From a virus, in the IMG/VR virus record IMGVR_UViG_3300050006_000850, positions 1 through 39,756 of that record: a stretch of 39,756 bases of DNA; one strand, given 5' to 3'. Numbering within the stretch: position 1 is the first letter of the stretch; every line of letters starts with the position of its first letter. The translations under genes were made by a program, and so were the position numbers. Positions 9,683 through 32,046 of this stretch are shown here, in pieces. The notes beneath the pieces are model-generated. The model worked only from the letters and a program-made list of their open reading frames with translations. It was not told the DNA's origin and did no database searches.

Positions 9683-12600
9683 TTGCCTTTTTCCAGCGAG
9701 CGGCAGAGACGGAAGTTCTTCGCGATGGCGGCGCGCGGGGAGATCTCCAAGGAGACCCTGGAGGAGTGGCAGGATTCCACAGGGGACAAGGAGCTGCCCG
9801 AGAAGGTCGGGTCTGGCCTCCGGTCGGCCCTGCGCATAGTGTCCTCAGAGCCCGGCGCGGGCCTGCGCAACTTTGAGTTCCACCTTGGGGACAAACTCAT
9901 CGGTGTCATCACCACCAAGGGTGGGCGCGTCTACAAGTCCTGGTTGGACTCGTCCTTCCGTGGGATGGGGCTGGGGAAGAAGATGTACGGTGAGACCATG
10001 CGCCGGCTGCCTGGCCAGCAGATGCGCAGTGACACCCTCGTCACGGAGCCTGCCGCCAGGGTGTGGCAGGGCATGGCGGCGCGCCCCGGGTATACACTGA
10101 AGGCTAGCCCGGACATCACCCGCGGTGCAGTTGAACCTGTCGAGTACTACCTCCCCCTCAAGCCGGAGCTGAGCCCCCTTGAGAACATCAAGAGAGACAT
10201 GTGGTCGGCGCGTCTGCCCGAGGCCGCTGCCATCAAGACGGCCAAGGCGGTCAAGGTTGGGCCCCCACCCAAGCGCAACAGGAAGAAGTGGCCCTACCAG
10301 GGCTCCATCAACTTCCGCGGCCTCGACATCCTGGTGGAGAACAAGCGCGGCACCGACCGTGTATGGACCGACGAGAACAACAAGGAGACCGGCCGCACCA
10401 GGATGCACCACCACTACGGTGAGGTGCGCCGGACCCTCGGCCCGGACGGTGACCCGGTCGACGTGTTCGTTGGCCCCGACCTCGACGCCGACGTGGTGTA
10501 CATCGTCCACCAGATGAAGCGGCCGAAGTACGAGGAGTACGACGAGGACAAGTGCATGCTGGGCTTCCGCACCGCCAAGGAGGCGAAGGCGGCCTACCTC
10601 ATCCACTACGACAGCCCCAAGTTCTTCGGGTCGATGACGACCATGTCCTTCGAGGACTTCAAGAAGCTGCTGAAGCGTCGAGATGTGAGGGGCAAGAGGA
10701 TCACCGAAGCTCTCATCAAGGTGGGGGCGCAGCTGTTCTTCCCCAGCGCCAGAGGTGAAACCGTTTTGGGGGGTACCCCAGAAAACGCCCCTACTACGGG
10801 GTCCATTTTGGAAAGCCAACTGCACAAGTTGGGCGCGATGGAGAAGGAGGCCCTCAACGAGCGTCTGCTCGCTCGCGTCTTCGGGAGGGAGTTGGAGAAG
10901 CACGGGCTCAAAGCCCATGACGTGCTCCAGGAGATGATCCACGGGTACGGGAAGGTGCATGTCCCGAAGGCGCTGAGGGACCAGATCCTTATCTGGGAGA
11001 TGATAACAACCCCCATGACATCTGGTGGGGCCATCCACCCGTACGGACTCCCTATTGAGCGGGTTGCACAGCGACTGGGCCCGAAGCATCAGCGGACGCA
11101 CGCTTACGTTGCCCAGCGGGTGGCCAAAGATGAGGCACGGAGGACGGATGCAGCACGGAGGGTAGCCCTACTCGGAAGGCACAACCCCGGGGAGGCTGTC
11201 GTCGGGGGTGTCCCCAAGACTGTGACAGACCGGGGTGTCCCCATCCCCGGCCCCGGGTACGCTCCGGACGCGGTGGCCTTTAGGGGGAGGCCGGGGCCGG
11301 GCGAAATGTACCACAAGCCGGGCCCACGGTGGGTGTCTGCTCACCCTGACATCTCTGCCGGGTATGAAGCTAGCACCCGCCATGGACACTTGGCGCGCAG
11401 GCTCAGACGCCTGACTGCGTATGACACCCACAAGATGGAGATGGCAGGACCCTGGACTCCGCACACCGCTGATGTCCCCGGACTTCTAACAGGCCTACGG
11501 GCACGGTTGGGGGGTCTGCGCCAGAAAGCTGGGCGGTCGGGTTGGGGGGAGTCCCCAACCTACGAGCGCGTGGTCCCATCCGCCGAGTTGGAGGCGAGCC
11601 TCCTATCAGAGTACAAGCCGTTGGTTGGTGGAGGGTACCAACGCGTGCGGGGGCCTGCGGTTCTAGGCGAGTCCGGGGGGGCTAGGGCCTCGGCCCCGCC
11701 CAGCACAGGACCAAGATCTGGGGCATCTCTGGAGAGAAAGCTCCTTCTGGGGGGTGCGGCTACGTTAGGGGCGGGGGCGGTAGTGGCCCCATCTGTTGCC
11801 ATCCCTGTAGCCCTTGCCTCCAGGTCGTCGGAGAAGCGGGGGTCCATTTTGGGAAACCAACTGGACAAGTTGGGTGCCAAGGGCATCCCGAGCAAGAAGA
11901 AGCGAACTGACCCACCGAAGCTGACCAGCCCGCAGACGATGGAGTTCGTCACCCAGCTGCACCACGCGCACAGAGCGGGGTGCTTCCCGGATGGGGCTCC
12001 CATTACCATGCCCGATGGGCGGGTGCTGCCTATTGAGCAAGTACCTATTGGTGCCTCGGTCTGCACACGAGGGGGGGTTGCACGCGTAAATCGATTGTGG
12101 GATAATGGACCTGCCTCCCAGTGGGTGCTGATGACCGCGAGAGACCTGGAGGTGTGCTGCACACCCACTCACCCAGTGTGGGTGGTTGCCTGCGGATGGG
12201 CCCCCGCCCTGGCACTCAGTGACCTGCGTTGCTGGGCGGACGAAGTCGGAGAAGTCCATGTCCACGACGAAGATCTGTGCCGTGTGCGGGGGCGAATTCA
12301 CGACCTCCGACAAGAGGACAGTCACCTGTGGGCGGAGCTGTGGGACGCGCTTGGGGCACCGGCGGAGTGGCCAAAGGGTTATCCCCATCTCCCGGCAGGA
12401 GCGCACGAAGAGGGTCGAGCGCGCGGCGCAACAGCACAAGAAGCAGAGGCAGGCCAAGTGGCCACAGCTCGACGACGCCCACTGGCTGGAGGCGCAGTAC
12501 CGGGAGGGGCCCCTCTCGCTGGAGGAGATCGGGCAACTCGTAGGGTGCAGTCGCACAGCTGTGACTGCCGCGCTGCAGCGTCTGAAGATCCCAATGCGGA

Positions 12601-14872
12601 CGGCTGCGGAGAGCCGGGTGCTGGCCGGCCGGAAGATGCGTGGGGAGAGCCACTACAACTGGAAGGGAGGCATGTACAACGGGCGGCCGATGGGAGAGGG
12701 GGGCCTCTACAGCCGAGCGAAACTGAGGAAGGCTGTGGTCAAGAAGCGGGGGCACAAGTGCGAGTGGTGCAGGAAGACGCACAGGGTCGAGCTGCACCAT
12801 GTGGTCCCGTACAGGTTCTCAGCAGACAACAACGACGACAATCTCCTGCTTCTCTGCCCGAGCTGCCACGGGAAGGCGGACAAGCTGTTCCTCACGATGG
12901 CTGGGGAGTTCTTCGCATCCGCAGGCTCCCCCGGGCTGCCCGACGCCGTCTCGACCTTGAGGTCGAAGGTACGCACTGCTACTACGCAGGCGGCTTCTTA
13001 GTCCACAACAGCCACATCGACCTGCGGCTGGGAGACACCAAGTCGGGCATCGCCCACTCCTGGGCGCTGCCGAAGGTCATCGTGCCGCAGCCCGGGGAGA
13101 AGGTCCTGGCCGTGCAGCAGCCAGACCACACCATCCACTACATGGACTTCCGCGGGCTCATCGGCCGTGGGTACGGCGCGGGCACCGTGAAGGCCGTGGA
13201 CCGCCTGCAGACCGAGGTCCACCACTCCGAGCCCGGGAAGGTGAAGTTCCGGTTGGACCGCGGCCGGGGGGGCGAGGAGTTCATCCTGCGGCGCACGGGC
13301 AAGCACGACCAGAGCACGAAGTGGCTCCTGCAGAACGTCACCAAGGAGAAGACGGCGTTCTTCTCCGCTGTGAACAACCTGCCGCAGTCGTCGTGGAAGC
13401 ACCGCTGGATGGAGAAGCGGATGCGCGCGGGCAAGGACCTCGGGCTCCACACGAACGCAGAGGTCGGCAAGGCCTTCCACAGCAACCCGCACTGGTTCAG
13501 CGCGTTCCCCACCTACGTCCAGACCTACAAGGTGGCCTCTGCACACGAGAAGACGGCCGCCGGTGGTGCGCTGGGGGAGGCCCTGCTCAACACCCTCCGG
13601 ATGCCTCAGACCGCGAACACGTACCGCCGGGGTGCCCGCTCCTTCTCCAACTGGGTGCACCGTGGCCTGACCAAGGAGGTCCCCGGGACCCGGGGGATCC
13701 AGCTCCTGCCCAAGGAGACCGCAGACGCCTTCGCCGCCATCGGGGCCGACAGCCCCCTGGCCATCCCTGCGGCGGCGTCGGCAGGGGCCTCGTTCCCGGT
13801 CCCAGGCTCGGGGGAGCTGGCGACCTACCTGACCCTCCTGGCCGACAGGTACGCGACACGTGCCCTCGGGGGGACTCCGCCGGCGCGCACTACTGAGGCC
13901 ACGAAGCACCTGGAGGGGCTGGTGCGGAAGGCCGGGAAGAAGTGGATCGGTCAGAGCCCGGAGACTGCGGCGCCGGCTATGCGCACCGGGCTGGAGGGTG
14001 CGCCCCCCATCATCAGCAAGGTCGCGAGCGCCCTGGAGGAGCACGTCGCCTCCTCCAGCGAGCAGGTCCTGGAGGCGGTACGGGCACGGGTGAAGCTGGC
14101 GGCAGCGGGTCCCATCATCCCGACCCCCAGGCACCTCGAGATGGCCGAGGAGATTGTCGCAAACGACAGTCTGTCGCAGGACAACTGGCTGACCTTCCAA
14201 CAACGACTGCAACGGAGCCCTGGCTATCGTCAGGCCGTTCTGCTACACCCCCAAGCCGACGCCAAGCTGAAGAGGCATGTGCGGGCCATGGGCGCTCTGC
14301 ACGAAGGAACCCACCTAAAAAAGGTGCAGTCGCTGAGCGGCCCATCGACATACCAGCTGAAGCTGATGTCTTCTGGGCGCCTGGGCTGTACCTGCCCAGA
14401 CTGGCGGTACCGCAAGTCGCACGGTGGGGGCGACTGCAAGCACGTTCGGGCGTTCCGGTCGGCCTACGACGCCGGTGAGATGCCGCGTGGCTACAAGGGC
14501 TTGCAGAACGCCCTGAAGAAGGTCTCCTCCGTGGTCGCCGCGAAGGTCATCAAGCAGTCCCTCGACGATCTGCCGAGGATCTTACGCAGTGCCGTGAGGA
14601 ACTACCCCAACCAGACCGTGAGGTCGGCCGAGGTAGTCGCTCAGGCACCGCCGTGGGTCAAGGCGTTGCTCCCCAAGGGCTTCAAGCAGCAGCTCGGGAG
14701 TGCTGGGTGGACCGCAGACGTGATGACCAAGGGTGTGACCACCCCCAGCGAGCTGGTCGGCAAGAACATCCAGAAGGCGTTCGACAAGCGGTACGCAGAC
14801 TCCTGGCGCCAGGCACGCTCCGCGGGCCTCGACCTTCCGGCCAGCATCAAGCGGATGGGCTTCGGCAGCTAG
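9683..14872 (+). CDS. giant polyvalent protein, intein-containing precursor
   Basis: A 1,729-residue precursor, 1,386 after splicing. It starts at TTG 9683 with GGAG six bases upstream. Regions in order: MPFSSERQR start; GNAT-like fold at residues 53-155 (FRGMGLGKKMYGE); predicted inorganic-pyrophosphatase-like domain of phage polyvalent proteins at residues 195-335 (GDPVDVFVGPD, then DEDKCMLGF); a cassette at residues 374-720 containing YHKPGPRWVSAHPDISAGYE, weakly like ADP-ribosyltransferases; LigD 3'-phosphoesterase-like domain around the intein (LHHAHRAG joined to SHIDLRL...SWALPK, matching the family's H...HxDxR metal site); and a SWIM zinc finger near residue 1569 (CTCPDW...CKH). Polyvalent proteins are thought to be injected with phage DNA to counter host defence. 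The domain names are from motif recognition; the GNAT and ADP-ribosyl calls are weakest. Its stop overlaps the convergent RNase HII stop. Confidence 0.85.
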   Translation: MPFSSERQRRKFFAMAARGEISKETLEEWQDSTGDKELPEKVGSGLRSALRIVSSEPGAGLRNFEFHLGDKLIGVITTKGGRVYKSWLDSSFRGMGLGKKMYGETMRRLPGQQMRSDTLVTEPAARVWQGMAARPGYTLKASPDITRGAVEPVEYYLPLKPELSPLENIKRDMWSARLPEAAAIKTAKAVKVGPPPKRNRKKWPYQGSINFRGLDILVENKRGTDRVWTDENNKETGRTRMHHHYGEVRRTLGPDGDPVDVFVGPDLDADVVYIVHQMKRPKYEEYDEDKCMLGFRTAKEAKAAYLIHYDSPKFFGSMTTMSFEDFKKLLKRRDVRGKRITEALIKVGAQLFFPSARGETVLGGTPENAPTTGSILESQLHKLGAMEKEALNERLLARVFGRELEKHGLKAHDVLQEMIHGYGKVHVPKALRDQILIWEMITTPMTSGGAIHPYGLPIERVAQRLGPKHQRTHAYVAQRVAKDEARRTDAARRVALLGRHNPGEAVVGGVPKTVTDRGVPIPGPGYAPDAVAFRGRPGPGEMYHKPGPRWVSAHPDISAGYEASTRHGHLARRLRRLTAYDTHKMEMAGPWTPHTADVPGLLTGLRARLGGLRQKAGRSGWGESPTYERVVPSAELEASLLSEYKPLVGGGYQRVRGPAVLGESGGARASAPPSTGPRSGASLERKLLLGGAATLGAGAVVAPSVAIPVALASRSSEKRGSILGNQLDKLGAKGIPSKKKRTDPPKLTSPQTMEFVTQLHHAHRAGCFPDGAPITMPDGRVLPIEQVPIGASVCTRGGVARVNRLWDNGPASQWVLMTARDLEVCCTPTHPVWVVACGWAPALALSDLRCWADEVGEVHVHDEDLCRVRGRIHDLRQEDSHLWAELWDALGAPAEWPKGYPHLPAGAHEEGRARGATAQEAEAGQVATARRRPLAGGAVPGGAPLAGGDRATRRVQSHSCDCRAAASEDPNADGCGEPGAGRPEDAWGEPLQLEGRHVQRAADGRGGPLQPSETEEGCGQEAGAQVRVVQEDAQGRAAPCGPVQVLSRQQRRQSPASLPELPREGGQAVPHDGWGVLRIRRLPRAARRRLDLEVEGTHCYYAGGFLVHNSHIDLRLGDTKSGIAHSWALPKVIVPQPGEKVLAVQQPDHTIHYMDFRGLIGRGYGAGTVKAVDRLQTEVHHSEPGKVKFRLDRGRGGEEFILRRTGKHDQSTKWLLQNVTKEKTAFFSAVNNLPQSSWKHRWMEKRMRAGKDLGLHTNAEVGKAFHSNPHWFSAFPTYVQTYKVASAHEKTAAGGALGEALLNTLRMPQTANTYRRGARSFSNWVHRGLTKEVPGTRGIQLLPKETADAFAAIGADSPLAIPAAASAGASFPVPGSGELATYLTLLADRYATRALGGTPPARTTEATKHLEGLVRKAGKKWIGQSPETAAPAMRTGLEGAPPIISKVASALEEHVASSSEQVLEAVRARVKLAAAGPIIPTPRHLEMAEEIVANDSLSQDNWLTFQQRLQRSPGYRQAVLLHPQADAKLKRHVRAMGALHEGTHLKKVQSLSGPSTYQLKLMSSGRLGCTCPDWRYRKSHGGGDCKHVRAFRSAYDAGEMPRGYKGLQNALKKVSSVVAAKVIKQSLDDLPRILRSAVRNYPNQTVRSAEVVAQAPPWVKALLPKGFKQQLGSAGWTADVMTKGVTTPSELVGKNIQKAFDKRYADSWRQARSAGLDLPASIKRMGFGS
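10802..10836 (+). repeat. direct repeat copy A (35 bp) at a cassette boundary
   Basis: 35 bases starting TCCATTTTGG, encoding part of GSILESQLHKLGA. It matches copy B at 31 of 35 positions. A hairpin-like CGTTTT...AAAACG element (10762-10787) lies just before it. Confidence 0.8.
11843..11877 (+). repeat. direct repeat copy B (35 bp) at a cassette boundary
   Basis: Second copy, encoding part of GSILGNQLDKLGA. It lies exactly 1,041 bases (347 codons) after copy A, so the intervening segment is in frame. Confidence 0.8.
11981..13009 (+). mobile_element. intein in the LigD-like phosphoesterase domain
   Basis: A 343-residue intein at precursor residues 767-1109. Block A begins with Cys (CFPDGAPITMPDG). 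Block B is CCTPTHPVW with the TxxH motif. The C-terminal block is YYAGGFLVHN followed by the nucleophile Ser of the extein. It interrupts the phosphoesterase active-site motif between LHHAHRAG and SHIDLRL, a typical conserved-site insertion. In the intein frame the middle (about residues 90-320) is compositionally odd and matches no endonuclease, because the endonuclease is encoded there in the +1 frame (12258-13001). All splicing residues look intact. Confidence 0.9.
12258..13001 (+). CDS. HNH endonuclease encoded out of frame inside the intein
   Basis: A 247-residue protein in the +1 frame relative to the surrounding precursor. ATG 12258 has its own Shine-Dalgarno site (GGAG, six bases upstream). 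Features in order: an N-terminal zinc-binding cluster (CAVC...C...SC); a helix-turn-helix near residues 90-115 (EEIGQLVGCSRTAVTAALQR); a HYNWKGG motif typical of HNH homing enzymes; and the HNH core CEWC...VELHHVVP...DNLLLLCPSCHGK near residues 170-215. Its stop at 12999-13001 overlaps the intein C-terminal block. It lies where in-frame homing domains usually sit in inteins, and would spread the intein by cutting intein-less alleles. It is expressed either as a separate internal gene or not at all. Confidence 0.88.
   Translation: MSTTKICAVCGGEFTTSDKRTVTCGRSCGTRLGHRRSGQRVIPISRQERTKRVERAAQQHKKQRQAKWPQLDDAHWLEAQYREGPLSLEEIGQLVGCSRTAVTAALQRLKIPMRTAAESRVLAGRKMRGESHYNWKGGMYNGRPMGEGGLYSRAKLRKAVVKKRGHKCEWCRKTHRVELHHVVPYRFSADNNDDNLLLLCPSCHGKADKLFLTMAGEFFASAGSPGLPDAVSTLRSKVRTATTQAAS
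14164..14176. promoter_or_regulatory. 13-bp palindrome site 2, CGACAGTCTGTCG
   Basis: Perfect dyad with central T within the polyvalent gene (codons for N-D-S-L-S). Confidence 0.7.
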
Positions 14873-17304: not shown

Positions 17305-20295
17305 TTGCGTCAGTCACTGCTGCAATCCTCGGGGCTGGCTCGAGTTCGGGTGAATCGGGACGAGCAGCTCGCCCGGCGAGAAGAGGTACATGACCCGGAG
17401 TCCCTGGTCTATGCTCGCCCCTCGGACTTCACCGAGTACGCGATTCGGGTAGTAGACCAGAAGGCCAACAAGGTCGTTCCATTCTCGTATGCGGAGCGCC
17501 GCTACCTCCGGAGAATCTACGACACCGGGGCCAAGCGCGTCTTGCTGAAGTGTGGCCGGCAGGTCGAGAAATGCCTGAACGCGCGTTCAGTAGTCTCTCT
17601 CGCGTCGGGTGCCCCAAAGGGGCTGAAGGACGTTCAGGTCGGTGACACGGTTGTGGGGTTGGGCGACAACACGGCCCACACCGCGGCAGGAGTGGTCACC
17701 TGGAAGTCGGAGGAGCTACGGAAGCCCTGCGTTCGCCTCCGAACACGTCAGGGCCACGAGACCATCATCGCACTGACGCACCCGATGCGAACGTGGGGGG
17801 CGTGGACCGAGGGGGGTGCGCTGAGAGTCAAGTCCCGCCTTGCTGTGGCCCGGCAGGTCGGTGATTTCACGGGTGATGGTGGCCCACACGACCACGAGAT
17901 CGTGCTGCTGGCCTACATGATCGCCGAGGGGTACACACCCGACGCACCTCACTGCTCGTTCACTCAGAACGAGGAAGGGCCGGTGCTCGGGGAGTTCCTT
18001 GACATCGTGCACGACAGGTTGGGGGACCAGTACGACCCACACGAACGGAAACGGGCACTGTGGCAGCTACGGTTCGGCAAGGATTCTCAGCTGCAGGGCC
18101 TTGTCGAGAAGTGGGGGCTCCGTGGGCTCCTCTCCCCCACCAAGTTCGTCCCAGACTTCGTCTACAGCCTCGACCAGTACCAGACGGCCCTCTTCCTCAA
18201 CCGCCTCTGGGCCGGGGATGGGCACTGCAGCTTGCAGGGCTCCTCGTACCACCTCGAGTACGACACTGTCTCCAAGCGCCTCGCGCGAGATGTGCAGCGG
18301 CTACTCTGGAAGTTCGGCATCCCTACCAGCTTCCGTTCTTGGAAGCCCAAACTCTACGAGGGTACCGACAAGTGGGCCCACAAGCTACGCGTCGAGACCC
18401 AGGAGGGCGCACGCAGGTTCATCGAGGAGATCGGAGCGCTGGGCAAGACCGAGCACCTCCCACTGTTGGGGGTGGATGCGAACAGCAACCGAGACACGTA
18501 CCCGATGGAGATCGCCGAGGACATCAAGGCAATCCACAGGTCGCGCGCTGGGTATCACCGACGGGGGCGGTACGTGCCCCAGCCATCGCTCCGCTCGGTG
18601 GGTCTCCGAGAGAAGCCCAAGTACCCCCTGACCCGGGAGAAGTTGAAGGAGTACGTCGACTTCTTCAACTCGGACGTCGGGTTCGACCGGCCGCTAGTCA
18701 ACCAGCTGCGTGCCCACCTGGACACTGACCTCTTCTGGGACGAGATCGTCGAGATTGAGGACGTCGGGGAGCAGCCCTGCTACGACATCACCGTCGAGGG
18801 CACCGACAGCTTCATCGCCGACGGATTCGTGACGCACAACAGCACCATGCTCGGCAACCGGATGCTGTCGATGTGCTGCCTCAATACGGGCTTCAAGTGC
18901 CTGTATGTGTCCCCCACCCACTCCCAGACGAATACGTTCAGCCGCGACAGACTGTCGGACCCCATCACGCTGTCCCCGATTCTCTCGTCCTGGACGACGA
19001 CCAAGCTCACCGACAACATCCACCTCAAAAAGTTTATCAACCACAGCAACATCACCCTGCGCTACGCGTACCACAACGCTGACCGTACCCGCGGTATCCC
19101 CTCGGACATGGTCACCATCGACGAGCTGCAGGACATCCTGATGACCAACATCCCGGTCATCGAGGAGACGGCATCGCACTCCCCTTGGGGCCTCTTCGTC
19201 TACTCGGGTACGCCGAAGTCGACCGACAACCCCATGGAGCACTACTGGGTCTACTACTCGCGGCAGAACGAGTGGATGGTCCCCTGCGAGCACCACGGTA
19301 CCCCCAAGCGGCCAGCCAGCTGGCACTGGAACATCCTGGGCGAACGCAACATTGGCCTGCACGGGCCCATCTGCGACAAGTGCGGAGAGACCATCGCCCC
19401 GATGCACCCGGCCGCGCACTGGCGGTCGCTCAACCCCAAGCCCGACATCCCCGAGCCCTTCGAGGGGTTCCGCATCCCGCAGCTGATGGTCCCCTGGATT
19501 GGCTGGACCGACATCCTGCAGAAGCAGAAGTTCTACGGGCGCGCCCAGTTCTACAACGAGGTCCTGGGCCTGAGCTACGACTCGGGGACACGGCCCATCA
19601 CACGCAGGCACCTCCGGGCGATCTGCAACCCCGAGCTGTCGATGGCGCGGGACGGCCTGGAGAAGATCCAGAACAGCCTGGGTGGCGCCCGGGTCTTCAT
19701 GGGCATCGACTGGACGGGCGGCAGCAACAAGAGTTTCACGGTGGCTACCCTGGGTGCCTACCTCCCGGGCAAGCGGGTGTTCTCCTTCTTCTACGTGCAC
19801 CGCTTCGAGGGCCAGGAGTCCGAGCCCGAGACCCAGCTGGAGCTCCTCAAGCAGCTCATCCGGAGCTGGCACGTGGACGTCGTGGGGGTGGACTTCGGCG
19901 GTGGCTACTGGCCCAACAACGAGCTCATCAAGGCCTTTGGCCCGCACCGGGTCATCAAGTGGCAGTACAGCCAGCCCAGCGAGAAGTGGCGGTGGGACGC
20001 CGGCCAGCAGCGGTACATGGTGAACCGCACGGCCGTGATGACGGACTTCTTCAACGCCCTGAAGCACTCCGACCGCCAGATCTTCGAGTTCCCACAGTGG
20101 GAACAGTTCCGGGAGCCCTACGCCACGGACTTCACCAACATCTTCAGCGAGTACAACGAGTCCCTCCGCCTGGACGAGTACAAGCTGGCCCCGGAGATGA
20201 CGGACGATACCTGCCACTCCGCCCTCCTGTGCCTGCTGGCCTCCACCCTCCGCATCCCCCGACTCGACATCTTCGCAGTGCAGCAGGAAACATAG
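17305..20295 (+). CDS. terL: terminase large subunit, intein-containing precursor
   Basis: A 996-residue precursor, 573 after splicing. It starts at TTG 17305 with AAGGAGG four bases upstream. The product is the DNA-packaging motor: an ATPase that drives DNA into proheads and a nuclease that cuts the concatemer. Walker A is CGRQVEK joined to ST (residues 83-89 plus the extein after the intein), with Glu where most P-loops have Gly. Walker B is MVTIDELQD near residue 602, and a coupling motif SGTP follows. A zinc-ribbon-like pair C..H/CDKC lies near residues 660-700. The RuvC-like nuclease has its acidic residues in GIDWTGG (about 800), VGVDFGGG (about 861) and DDTCH (about 967). The stop is followed by a strong hairpin. 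Palindrome site 3 lies just after the intein. Confidence 0.95.
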   Translation: MRQSLLQSSGLARVRVNRDEQLARREEVHDPESLVYARPSDFTEYAIRVVDQKANKVVPFSYAERRYLRRIYDTGAKRVLLKCGRQVEKCLNARSVVSLASGAPKGLKDVQVGDTVVGLGDNTAHTAAGVVTWKSEELRKPCVRLRTRQGHETIIALTHPMRTWGAWTEGGALRVKSRLAVARQVGDFTGDGGPHDHEIVLLAYMIAEGYTPDAPHCSFTQNEEGPVLGEFLDIVHDRLGDQYDPHERKRALWQLRFGKDSQLQGLVEKWGLRGLLSPTKFVPDFVYSLDQYQTALFLNRLWAGDGHCSLQGSSYHLEYDTVSKRLARDVQRLLWKFGIPTSFRSWKPKLYEGTDKWAHKLRVETQEGARRFIEEIGALGKTEHLPLLGVDANSNRDTYPMEIAEDIKAIHRSRAGYHRRGRYVPQPSLRSVGLREKPKYPLTREKLKEYVDFFNSDVGFDRPLVNQLRAHLDTDLFWDEIVEIEDVGEQPCYDITVEGTDSFIADGFVTHNSTMLGNRMLSMCCLNTGFKCLYVSPTHSQTNTFSRDRLSDPITLSPILSSWTTTKLTDNIHLKKFINHSNITLRYAYHNADRTRGIPSDMVTIDELQDILMTNIPVIEETASHSPWGLFVYSGTPKSTDNPMEHYWVYYSRQNEWMVPCEHHGTPKRPASWHWNILGERNIGLHGPICDKCGETIAPMHPAAHWRSLNPKPDIPEPFEGFRIPQLMVPWIGWTDILQKQKFYGRAQFYNEVLGLSYDSGTRPITRRHLRAICNPELSMARDGLEKIQNSLGGARVFMGIDWTGGSNKSFTVATLGAYLPGKRVFSFFYVHRFEGQESEPETQLELLKQLIRSWHVDVVGVDFGGGYWPNNELIKAFGPHRVIKWQYSQPSEKWRWDAGQQRYMVNRTAVMTDFFNALKHSDRQIFEFPQWEQFREPYATDFTNIFSEYNESLRLDEYKLAPEMTDDTCHSALLCLLASTLRIPRLDIFAVQQET
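17572..18840 (+). mobile_element. LAGLIDADG intein in terminase Walker A
   Basis: A 423-residue intein. It begins with Cys 90 of the precursor (CLNARSVVSLASG), block B is IALTHPMRT, and it ends FIADGFVTHN before Ser. Two LAGLIDADG (DOD) blocks are visible: LLAYMIAEGY near intein residue 112 and FLNRLWAGDGHC near 208, giving a monomeric homing endonuclease. The intein splits the ATP-binding motif GRQVEK/ST, so the terminase is inactive until splicing. All splice residues look intact. Confidence 0.95.
18945..18957. promoter_or_regulatory. 13-bp palindrome site 3, CGACAGACTGTCG
   Basis: Perfect dyad with central A in the terminase extein (codons for R-D-R-L-S). Confidence 0.7.
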
Positions 20296-29315: not shown

Positions 29316-30440
29316 ATGTCGCGTCCCGCAGACATCCTGAACCGCCTCTTCTCGCAGAAGGTCGAAACCGCGGAAGGCAAGGAGAAGATCGCCGAGTACG
29401 GCGGCACCTACATCCGCGACCACCTCCGCGAGGTGAGTTTCGCCCGCAAGGTCGTCCCGCCGCAGCAGGTCACCAAGGCCGACTGCCAGCGGAGCGTCTC
29501 GCACGACACCCTCGTCAAGATCGTGGACATCGAGCCCCAGAGCCGGGCCATGGCCATCACCTTCCGCGGACACCCGACCGCGCGGTACATCTCCGCGCCT
29601 CGGTTCGAGATCCCCTTCTACACGATCTCCTCGGAGAAGTTCGAGAAGACCGAGCAGGAGCTCCTGGCCTACGAGATGCCCATCACCAAGGTCATCGAGG
29701 ACAACACGGCCAAGGACATCCAGGAGATCGAGGACCGTGAGTTCCTGCTGCACATCGAGGCCTGCATCGAGGCCGTGCAGACGGAGAACAACGGCGGCAT
29801 CGCCGTCGCGTTCAACCGCACCAACGTCAACGCCGGCGCCGTGGTGGGTGCCTCCAAGGTCAAGGGCCTCAACTCCCTGACCCTGGGCGGCGCGGACGAC
29901 TTCGAGGTGCGGCCCATCCTGCGGCCCGACATCGTCAACCTGCGCAAGCTGCTCAGCCGCAACCGGCTGCGCCCCGAGCGCATGCTGATGACCGAGCCGG
30001 ACTTCGAGGACGTGCTGCAGTGGACCATCGAGGACTTCGGAGACAAGATCCAGTCCGAGACGGTGGTCGACGGCTACAAGTACAACATGCTCCTCGGCAC
30101 CAACTTCATCCGCACGATCAAGACCGACATCCTGCGGGACGGCAACGTGTACATCTTCACGAAGCCGGAGTTCTTCGGACGGTTCTACATCCTGAACCAG
30201 ACGAAGTTCTACATCGACAAGAAGGCCAACGTCCTCTTCTGGCAGGCCTGGGAGGACATCGGCATGGGGTTCGGAAACATCGCCTCCGTGCGCAAGCTCG
30301 AGCTGTACCGCGGCTCGGTCATCACGGGTGCGACCGACGTGGGCTTCGCCGGCCGTCAGCCGGTGGCGGAGACCGCCCTGGGCGCGATGCAGAACCGCGC
30401 CGCCGACGGCCTGACGTTCCCGCAGGTCAATCAGTTTTGA
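29316..30440 (+). CDS. probable major capsid protein
   Basis: A 374-residue protein starting at ATG 29316 behind AAGGAG. It looks like an HK97-fold major capsid protein of large phages. It has a helical N-arm (residues 1-60), then beta segments (RAMAITFRGHPTARYIS; RFEIPFYTISSEKFEK). A spine-helix-like stretch follows, TKVIEDNTAKDIQEIEDREFL (residues 127-147), and then a P-domain (RERMLMTEPDFEDVLQWT-like segment at about residues 225-245). The C-terminal part is GRFYILNQTKFYIDKK...WQAWEDIGMGF. Context supports this: protease and scaffold-like genes upstream, neck and sheath genes downstream. The call is inferred from length, order and fold pattern. Confidence 0.75.
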   Translation: MSRPADILNRLFSQKVETAEGKEKIAEYGGTYIRDHLREVSFARKVVPPQQVTKADCQRSVSHDTLVKIVDIEPQSRAMAITFRGHPTARYISAPRFEIPFYTISSEKFEKTEQELLAYEMPITKVIEDNTAKDIQEIEDREFLLHIEACIEAVQTENNGGIAVAFNRTNVNAGAVVGASKVKGLNSLTLGGADDFEVRPILRPDIVNLRKLLSRNRLRPERMLMTEPDFEDVLQWTIEDFGDKIQSETVVDGYKYNMLLGTNFIRTIKTDILRDGNVYIFTKPEFFGRFYILNQTKFYIDKKANVLFWQAWEDIGMGFGNIASVRKLELYRGSVITGATDVGFAGRQPVAETALGAMQNRAADGLTFPQVNQF

Positions 30441-30495: not shown

Positions 30496-31431
30496 ATGAG
30501 TTCAAAACACACCACAGACTACCGCCGCCGTGAGGCCCGAAAGCGGGCCTCCGGCGAGCTCCCCCCCGACAACTGCACTACACCGGGCTGCTACAACAAG
30601 CGGGAGCACCCCTACAAGAAGTGCCGTAAGTGCCTCGACTACCACCGAGAGTACAAACGCAGGTACCGCAAGAAGCAGGAAAAGCGCCCAGGTACGTGCT
30701 CCAAGGCCGACTGCAACCACCCCACAGATGGGGAGCACAAGTTGTGCACACGCTGCAGGAGGCAGATTCGGGAGCGTCAGCGCAACAACCCAGGGTATGC
30801 CCGCAAGCACAAGGCCATGCGCGCCCGGGTCAAGGCGGAGGCCCTTGATTACTACGGACGGGTCTGCCAGTGCTGTGGCGAGGAGCATGAGGAGTTCCTG
30901 ACCCTTGACCACATCGATGGGGGAGGCGCCCGCCACACCACTCCCTCCGGTAAGACCCGATACCGGGGACCGCAGCTCTATGCCTGGCTCAAGCGGAACG
31001 GGTGGCCCGATGGGTTCCGGACGCTGTGCCATACCTGCAACTTCACGTTAGGCCACTTCGGGTACTGCCCGCACAGCGACCTAACCCAGCGTACAAACAC
31101 GGGCAGGCCGCCTAAGGGCTACCGTCCCTCGAAGGAAGACCGGGAGAAGCGTGCAGCTCGACACCGTCGCCTCAAGCTGGAGGTGATGAACGCCTACGGC
31201 GGACCCAAGTGCTCCTGCCCTGGGTGCACCGAGGACAACCTGGGGTGCTTGTCCATCGACCACCTTGGGTCCGGCGCGGACCACCGAGAAGAGGTCAACG
31301 GGGACCGCAGGGATGGGAGAAACCTGTACTCCTGGCTCAAGCGGCACGACTTCCCACCCGGCTACCGCGTGCTCTGCCACAACTGCAATTTTGCCCACGG
31401 GCACTTGGGGTACTGTCCGCATCAGGACTGA
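30496..31431 (+). CDS. tandem HNH-type endonuclease
   Basis: A 311-residue protein. Two zinc-binding cysteine pairs come first (CTTPGCYNK...CRKC; CSKADCNHP...CTRC). Two copies of the same endonuclease-like unit follow. Residues 120-195: CQCCGEEHEEFLTLDHIDGGG ... LYAWLKRNGWPDGF ... LCHTCNFTLGHFGYCPH. Residues 230-310: CSCPGCTEDNLGCLSIDHLG ... LYSWLKRHDFPPGY ... LCHNCNFAHGHLGYCPH. Both keep the DH pair and the CxxCN motif. Free-standing homing endonucleases of this type usually have one such unit. It sits between the capsid gene and its downstream partner in an otherwise tight gene string, which marks it as an insertion. Confidence 0.85.
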   Translation: MSSKHTTDYRRREARKRASGELPPDNCTTPGCYNKREHPYKKCRKCLDYHREYKRRYRKKQEKRPGTCSKADCNHPTDGEHKLCTRCRRQIRERQRNNPGYARKHKAMRARVKAEALDYYGRVCQCCGEEHEEFLTLDHIDGGGARHTTPSGKTRYRGPQLYAWLKRNGWPDGFRTLCHTCNFTLGHFGYCPHSDLTQRTNTGRPPKGYRPSKEDREKRAARHRRLKLEVMNAYGGPKCSCPGCTEDNLGCLSIDHLGSGADHREEVNGDRRDGRNLYSWLKRHDFPPGYRVLCHNCNFAHGHLGYCPHQD

Positions 31432-31512
31432 GGGTACGCTCCTTCTTGCCACTACAGGTGAGCCTCTACTAGTATCGGGGGGTCGCCACTCAAGTTGAAA
31501 GGGGCCCTGGAC

Positions 31513-32046
31513 ATGTCCACCTTCCACGTCCTCAAGACCCGCAACGCTCCCCCGAGCCTCTTCGCCGCTGGCAAGGGTGTGGGCCGCAGGTTCCCCCTCG
31601 TCCTGACCGCCGTCGAGCACAAGCAGCACAGGGCAGAGCTGCTGCGGCTCAAGGGCCAGGGCTACATCACCATCGAAGAGGTCCCCGAGCTCACTCTCGA
31701 GACCTCCGACGGACGCACCGTCGAGGACATCCTCGTCGAGGCCACCCCGGAGCCCGAGCCGGTGACGGAGGAGCTCGCCGAGGAGATCGACGAGGCACGG
31801 GCCGAGCCGGAGGCCGAGGCCCTCGACGAGAAGCCCGAAGAGGTCGTCGAGGTTCCCCCGGAGCCCGATCCGGAGGTGTACGACCTCTCCCTCCTGGACC
31901 AGTCCGTCAAGGCCCTCATCCAGGACCTGGACGTGATCGACGACCCCGGATGGCTCCGTGCGCTGCGCGCGGCGGAGAACCTGGGCAAGACCCGCAAGAG
32001 CGCCGTAGCCGCCATCAAGGAGCGCCTCGAAGCGCTGGAGGGCTGA
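31513..32046 (+). CDS. acidic virion-type protein
   Basis: A 177-residue protein. I chose ATG 31513, with AAGGGG about eight bases upstream; TTG 31495 is a longer alternative. The N-terminal 60 residues are folded (FHVLKTRNAPPSLFAAGKG; LLRLKGQGYITIEEV). Residues 75-125 are a very acidic Pro/Glu linker. The C-terminal 50 residues are helical (WLRALRAAENLGKTRKSAVAA), resembling a small DNA- or protein-binding helix bundle. No family is recognised. It is the first gene of the neck-side string after the HNH insertion. Confidence 0.6.
   Translation: MSTFHVLKTRNAPPSLFAAGKGVGRRFPLVLTAVEHKQHRAELLRLKGQGYITIEEVPELTLETSDGRTVEDILVEATPEPEPVTEELAEEIDEARAEPEAEALDEKPEEVVEVPPEPDPEVYDLSLLDQSVKALIQDLDVIDDPGWLRALRAAENLGKTRKSAVAAIKERLEALEG

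Follow-up and report, generated by a model that had tools for sequence, protein, structure and literature searches.

What does an HNH-type nuclease gain from carrying two nuclease units in one chain, and why does its gene lie directly behind a capsid gene? These questions are raised by an open reading frame (ORF) in the 39,756-nucleotide stretch of viral DNA analyzed here (the window; IMG/VR virus record IMGVR_UViG_3300050006_000850, positions 1-39,756). An earlier note had described the ORF as a tandem-duplicated HNH-type endonuclease and had suggested that a fused dimer could recognize a longer or asymmetric site. In this study, the protein, its predicted fold and its genomic site were compared with loci fetched for this purpose, which carry L numbers. 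We consider it probable that the ORF, which lies 3' of the major capsid protein (MCP) gene, encodes a free-standing homing endonuclease, the two units of which form a single-chain pair, plausibly nicking both strands. The features of the locus are listed in Table 1.

Table 1. Features of the capsid junction in the window.
Feature	Coordinates	Strand	Basis or remark
Major capsid (head) protein gene, MCP, immediately upstream of the nuclease gene	29316..30440	+	PHROG 2522, 2e-08
GC-rich RNA hairpin, MCP stop to nuclease start codon	30445..30493	+	-34.7 kcal/mol, z -5.44; 0/200 shuffles as stable
Two-unit HNH-type endonuclease ORF	30496..31431	+	311 aa, ATG start; family profile matches twice
Zinc lead 1 (C27, C32, C43, C46)	30574..30633	+	C27, C32, C43 invariant; C46 is His in L290
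Zinc lead 2 (C68, C73, C84, C87)	30697..30756	+	4/4 Cys invariant in window, L290, L294, L168
HNH-type unit 1, aa 103-193	30802..31074	+	Profile match, predicted model
Unit 1 catalytic-type pair D138-H139	30907..30912	+	Sequence; His kept in 34/35 two-unit ORFs
Unit 1 CHTCN, zinc Cys and catalytic-type N182	31027..31041	+	Sequence
Inter-unit linker	31075..31131	+	xxLTQ start as in L290, L294, L168; next GRP as in L290, L294
HNH-type unit 2, aa 213-311	31132..31428	+	Profile match, predicted models
Unit 2 catalytic-type pair D255-H256	31258..31263	+	Sequence; His kept in 35/35 two-unit ORFs
Unit 2 CHNCN, zinc Cys and catalytic-type N298	31375..31389	+	Sequence; Asn kept in 33/35 two-unit ORFs
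Downstream gene	31495..32046	+	Homologue in L010/L011, 67% aa identity

Elsewhere in the window, three further ORFs on the + strand were noted. An RNA polymerase beta-prime-like protein with Rpb1 domains (best 3.2e-30) is encoded at 16-2910, and a 1729-aa ORF at 9683-14872 combines an inorganic pyrophosphatase domain (1e-33) with a LigD 3'-phosphoesterase domain (2.4e-11). The large terminase gene at 17305-20295 contains an in-frame intein (LAGLIDADG_3, 1e-12; Intein_splicing, 3.3e-09; GpA_ATPase, 1.1e-4), through which the L011 and L294 records match; in L415/L290, L286, L001 and L416, the match is split in two and lacks the intein part. Scans of the window for tRNAs and Rfam families found none, and a megablast search of positions 16000-39756 against named phages gave no match.

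The nuclease ORF begins with two short zinc leads, followed by two units of about 95 amino acids, each laid out as a Cys cluster, D-H, G-[FY]-R-x-L-C-x-x-C-N and a C-P-H tail. Pairwise alignment of the two units gave 45% identity (43/95) at an E value of 6e-26, which rules out a chance resemblance. The family profile, with E values of 2.1e-41 and 2.1e-39 for the two units, was built with both of them included; the independent test of homology is the unit-against-unit alignment. Both units keep the DH pair and the CxxCN motif, as had been claimed, the latter spanning C178-N182 in unit 1 and C294-N298 in unit 2. The two zinc-binding leads seen in the earlier note also proved to be real, with seven of the eight cysteines invariant in an alignment of the window protein with L290, L294 and L168. 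No match was found for the window protein in Pfam or NCBIfam at E values up to 1, and its matches to PHROG were weak (HNH, 0.0013; endonuclease VII, 0.07).

A model of the whole protein (pLDDT 86.5, pTM 0.71), predicted from an input alignment of 30 two-unit proteins, contains the beta-beta-alpha (strand-strand-helix) core twice: strands 135-139 and 174-178 with helix 179-188 in unit 1, and strands 252-256 and 290-294 with helix 295-304 in unit 2. DH ends the first strand and the Asn of CxxCN lies near the helix start, which is the layout of beta-beta-alpha-metal nucleases. Unit 2 modelled alone has the same core (pLDDT 90.9). By sequence and predicted fold, the window protein is therefore an HNH-type (beta-beta-alpha-metal) nuclease with two intact units, the class to which it had been assigned before structure prediction, proposed at that time as a check, was run.

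Matches to the models were sought among solved and predicted structures. With the whole model, the first row returned by the structural aligner was Legionella DotN (Z 4.1), which is not named as a nuclease, and several HNH nucleases appeared at Z 3.3 and below; with unit 2 the first row was Gmet_0936 (PDB 4h9d; Z 3.9, rmsd 3.8, 66 aligned), tied with others. EndoVII, Hpy99I and PacI were absent among the structural matches listed. Foldseek searches of the PDB with the whole model and with unit 2 found nothing at E 0.001 or better, and sequence searches for solved relatives with the protein or the unit profile found nothing credible. The best match in BFVD was a 230-aa protein of an uncultured phage (E 1.3e-12), followed by nine giant-virus proteins of 277-545 aa (E below 1e-4, 294-353 columns aligned), which cover most of the two-unit model in alignments with low TM scores of 0.36-0.43 and rmsd values of 9-28. 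The giant-virus matches, mostly named HNH endonuclease, belong to Medusavirus, Clandestinovirus, Pithovirus, Barrevirus and Marseillevirus. The two-unit architecture, as modelled, may reach eukaryotic viruses.

The fetched loci contain at least 304 unit-bearing ORFs, or 249 after removal of 90% copies, and these comprise, among the matches listed, 35 two-unit, 214 one-unit and no three-unit ORFs. The two-unit share (35/249) and the counts of intact residues describe an enriched sample: some loci were fetched by DNA patterns fixing the CN of unit 1 and the DH and CxxCN of unit 2 or by the GYCPHxxLTQ pattern, and another scan ranked its matches by a two-unit query and kept the best 80. Where two units were not asked for, two-unit ORFs were found in two of the 80 best loci kept in one scan (L137, L168) and in four of 34 loci in another (L106, L115, L122, L125). 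Among named phages, 32 records match the protein, none over 80% of the query, and the 12 that were fetched have one unit each; one plasmid record matches in one place, with 65% of the query covered.

The relatives L290 (47% identical to the window protein over 304 aa), L294 (38% over 318 aa), L387/L416 and L168 (36% over 323 aa) share its architecture. The earlier note had proposed that loss of an active site from one unit in close relatives would indicate decay and not function; in these relatives, both units are complete. Across the 30 aligned two-unit proteins, H139, N182, H256 and N298 are invariant and D138 and D255 nearly so, columns that flatter the conservation, since the alignment omits L363, one of the two L437 ORFs, both L304 ORFs and L385, and the L304 pair and L385 carry changed residues. 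The count over all 35 ORFs includes them; there the Asn of unit 1 is kept in 35, and the other values are those of Table 1. The key residues are complete in 206 of the 214 one-unit ORFs.

It might be supposed that the protein is a homing endonuclease in which one unit alone cuts, and that the other is, by later change or from the outset, an extension that binds DNA and makes the recognition site longer, as zinc-bound folds can bind DNA without cutting. Several details of sequence agree with this. The loops after DH in unit 1 are atypical in L290, L294 and L168, where HR is missing, and unit 1 of the window has Thr for the near-invariant Asn of CxNCN, a replacement found in two of 284 units, the other being unit 1 of L290. 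Furthermore, one unit is changed at a key position in eight of the 35 two-unit ORFs: L385 lacks D-H in unit 1, the Asn of unit 2 is Gln in both L304 ORFs, a zinc Cys is replaced by His in L466 and L438 and by Tyr in L435, and Asp is replaced by His in L125 and L421. By sequence, decay or specialization of one unit does occur beyond the close relatives. However, the H of HR is not fixed in single units either (143/214), and L290, L294, L387 and L168 retain D, H, N and the zinc cysteines in each of their two units; all seven key residues are present in both units of 27 of the 35 ORFs. A pure binding role is not expected to preserve D, H and N, and we regard a single cutting unit as unlikely.

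The ORFs of L385 (3793-4560, - strand) and L493 (5764-6531, + strand), in which the DH part of unit 1 is missing, may be either decayed or specialized. They could be cited, together with the sporadic presence of the gene, for the view that the second unit is a functionless duplication, a decaying passenger soon to be lost. In the window, however, the frame is open and no key residue is lost, and phages the MCPs of which are just 26-64% identical to that of the window (L290, L294, L387) share the architecture, with two complete units. A passenger of this kind is very improbable.

The word 'duplicated' in the earlier note implies an origin that the comparison of units does not bear out, although the homology of the two units stands. 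In a tree of 45 rows, unit 1 of L290, L168, L294 and L387 forms a group (bootstrap 96, SH-aLRT 80) and unit 2 of the window pairs with that of L290 (98/71, below the star threshold of the tool), in a tree in which the bootstrap had not settled and unit 1 of the window is not firmly placed. These two groupings, with the Thr of CxTCN shared with L290, speak against a duplication peculiar to the window phage. Together with the xxLTQ linker common to the relatives, where the LTQ of L294 is not independent evidence because that locus was first fetched by the GYCPHxxLTQ tail pattern, they indicate that the two-unit form is most likely inherited and older than the window phage. Duplication and fusion are both compatible with the tree. 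Approximately unbiased (AU) tests rejected none of the groupings imposed (window units 1 and 2, p 0.538; all units 1, 0.532; all units 2, 0.672; all ten units, 0.639), and each constrained tree scored above the free tree, so the 45-row tree is poorly resolved. A wider tree (146 units, 99 columns) leaves 88 of its 142 inner branches open and weakly places unit 2 of the window with single units from the MCP site and both units of L168, with unit 1 of the window outside; the two-unit label needs 11 changes on it, of which well-supported branches force only one. Two-unit ORFs elsewhere in the family have different spacing and different leads, which makes separate origins of two-unit forms plausible. 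In L165/L166 (1832-3276) and L202 (2881-3772), two one-unit frames lie side by side, overlapping in L202; these are possible forerunners of a fusion.

The site of the gene was characterized by comparison with the closest relatives of the capsid gene. The window MCP shares 28% identity with the Salmonella phage Arash capsid protein (5e-30) and is 98% identical to the MCPs of L010 and L011, which are identical to each other. DNA homology between the window and L010/L011 ends at the MCP stop, position 30440, and resumes at about 31488-31513; between these ends, only scattered short matches are shared. The downstream gene probably starts at ATG 31513, judging from the aligned ATG in L010/L011. No relative of the nuclease was found elsewhere in the L010 and L011 records (63,275 and 4,462 b). 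Since homology breaks at the MCP stop and resumes beyond the gene, with no copy in these records, the nuclease gene is a clean insert between the MCP gene and the next gene, and the junction to which the earlier note had pointed for mapping the cut is empty in these two close relatives. The MCP gene is the probable neighbourhood of the homing site.

Within the junction, the stem of the RNA hairpin is separated by 2 nt from the nuclease ATG, and the hairpin could serve to end capsid transcription or to hide the ribosome site of the nuclease gene. The 80 nt past the MCP gene fold with -23 to -46 kcal/mol in 17 loci, empty ones included, values that stand without a shuffle control. The flanks were also considered for co-conversion. 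The MCP gene matches L010 at 93-100% in ten of eleven 100-nt blocks and at 84% in one block, and its codon identity to L011 is 90%, against 88, 75 and 74% for three neighbours. A similar MCP excess is found in pairs without the gene (89 versus 71% in L036/L067, for example), and the high identity is thus no signature of co-conversion around the nuclease.

The same junction is occupied in other phages. Directly behind the MCP gene, at least four two-unit ORFs (window, L290, L294 and L387/L416) and at least nine non-redundant one-unit ORFs (L286, L428, L040, L083, L159, L455, L457, L001 and L082, among which L083, L159, L455 and L457 are close kin) were found. Measured from the end of the MCP gene, their open frames begin at -33 to 122 nt, and the neighbouring MCPs are 26-67% identical to that of the window; L211, the tenth of the one-unit ORFs, is more distant, at 749 nt. 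A family ORF starts within 260 nt of the MCP gene in 15 of 74 loci with differing MCP sequences and at least 600 nt downstream, a set enriched because many were fetched via the nuclease, and in which L387 and L417 carry the same protein. When relatives were instead fetched by MCP, the best 80 of 270 being kept, four contained a family member (L040, L074, L082 and L083, with L074 and L083 near copies). The two-unit architecture is not tied to the MCP site, since L168 lies on a 257-kb contig with a sole, weak MCP match (E 3.4e-6) about 60 kb away. Two one-unit ORFs at the junction have additions of their own: L040 (7110-7985, + strand) has, by eye, four zinc leads and one nuclease unit, its leads and not its units being duplicated, and L286 (4716-5645, + strand) is extended at its C terminus by about 110 aa, which contain another Cys-rich motif.

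Retention across divergent phages would also fit a nuclease recruited for the benefit of the phage, in packaging, DNA processing or interference with co-infecting phages, rather than a selfish gene. Such roles are on record, at least in the parts of these sources drawn on here: the HNH nuclease of HK97 acts with terminase (PMC10448857), and a phage intron endonuclease aids competition (PMC11620839). Nevertheless, the gene is missing from L010 and L011, its phage's closest relatives, 76 of the 80 loci fetched by MCP, some of them ending shortly past the MCP gene, showed no family member, and the gene adjoins the MCP gene and not that of the terminase. Recruitment is accordingly a poor candidate, a little less so than the passenger view.

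A homing mechanism with two cutting units can be proposed as follows. The two N-terminal zinc leads, together with basic helices, would probably hold a DNA target near the 3' end of the MCP gene, and the single chain would supply two active sites, where one-unit relatives would pair or make do with a single nick. In a co-infecting phage with an empty capsid/downstream junction, the nuclease would cut there, most likely by one nick on each strand, one per unit, and repair of the break would then copy the nuclease gene into the empty junction. From the intact units, the predicted fold and the distribution of the gene, we infer that the leads bind DNA, that the protein cleaves and where it does so, how the nicks are divided, and that the gene homes. 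Two nicks from one chain are favoured over the longer site suggested in the earlier note, because one-unit members occupy the same junction: a second unit is not needed there, which favours an added strand cut over a new or longer site.

Among known systems, T4 endonuclease VII (PF02945, Endonuclease_7) has the same order of a zinc Cys pair, D-H and CxxC-N. PF02945 matches six of 30 two-unit proteins (best 4.2e-06) and 16 of 36 units (best 1.4e-04) at E values up to 0.1, and PHROG 2255, an HNH endonuclease, matches 18 of the 30 proteins (best 9.2e-25). In contrast to endonuclease VII, the window protein has no PF02945 match, lacks the second His of DHDH and has two units per chain. Most, but not all, DHHRN homing endonucleases, such as F-CphI with its EndoVII motif, are described as keeping H43 of EndoVII (PMC6083498); in the window, DH is followed by I140-D141 and L257-G258, and the second-His column holds His in 13 of 284 units. 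The central Asn of classic HNH enzymes, defined here as nine residues before the last catalytic position, as N68 is to N77 in Gmet_0936, corresponds to Gly in each of the window units (of 284 units, 189 have G and 23 have N). The Gme HNH nicking endonuclease Gmet_0936 is described as having zinc Cys pairs, D53-H54 and, immediately following the last Cys, N77 (PMC3765158). Both window units share with it two zinc Cys pairs, D-H and an Asn directly past the last Cys; it differs in having one unit only, in its low Z and in its N68, which corresponds to Gly.

The free-standing HNH homing endonucleases of phages, such as those of the T4 mob genes and mycobacteriophage Cluster J, are described as small HNH-type genes alone between genes (PMC2988022, PMC3706429). 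The window gene encodes a predicted nuclease fold with intact catalytic-type residues, is a solitary insert between two genes whose junction is empty in L010 and L011, and recurs at the same site in divergent phages. As far as the T4 review describes them, the mob proteins have one nuclease domain, unlike the two units here; MobA and MobE, both free-standing HNH enzymes, nick one strand, whereas I-TevIII acts as a dimer and makes a double-strand break (PMC2988022). By inference from these enzymes, a single chain with two units would meet the need for a dimer.

Capsid neighbourhoods also have precedents. Gene 23 of T4 is its capsid gene. A T4 gene of the GIY-YIG family, segD, is flanked by genes 23 and 24 (PMC2988022), and nuclease genes are reported to cluster near essential phage genes, the GIY-YIG-type (T5orf172) family at capsid genes and the HNH family at DNA polymerase, reductase and terminase genes in the part of that account used here (PMC10448857). 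An HNH homing enzyme with two units per chain was not recognized among the papers listed from the open-licence literature, which was covered mostly by title and start of abstract; its matches for 'two HNH domains' were CBASS Cap5.

In single-chain LAGLIDADG homing endonucleases, two homologous halves in one chain replace a homodimer; their fold is unrelated and the comparison is one of analogy. The window protein may, as a bolder and still tentative suggestion, be a natural single-chain HNH heterodimer, in which two diverged, fused nickase units each cut one strand to give a double-strand break at the capsid junction. It would then be the HNH counterpart of the single-chain LAGLIDADG enzymes and a way round the problem of how a single nick starts homing; how an HNH single-strand nick promotes recombination is named as an outstanding question in the T4 review (PMC2988022). 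One natural site with one-unit, two-unit and empty alleles makes a nick and a double-strand break comparable at the same locus, and two-unit HNH-type proteins, an architecture that recurs and is conserved, could be a source of compact single-chain nucleases.
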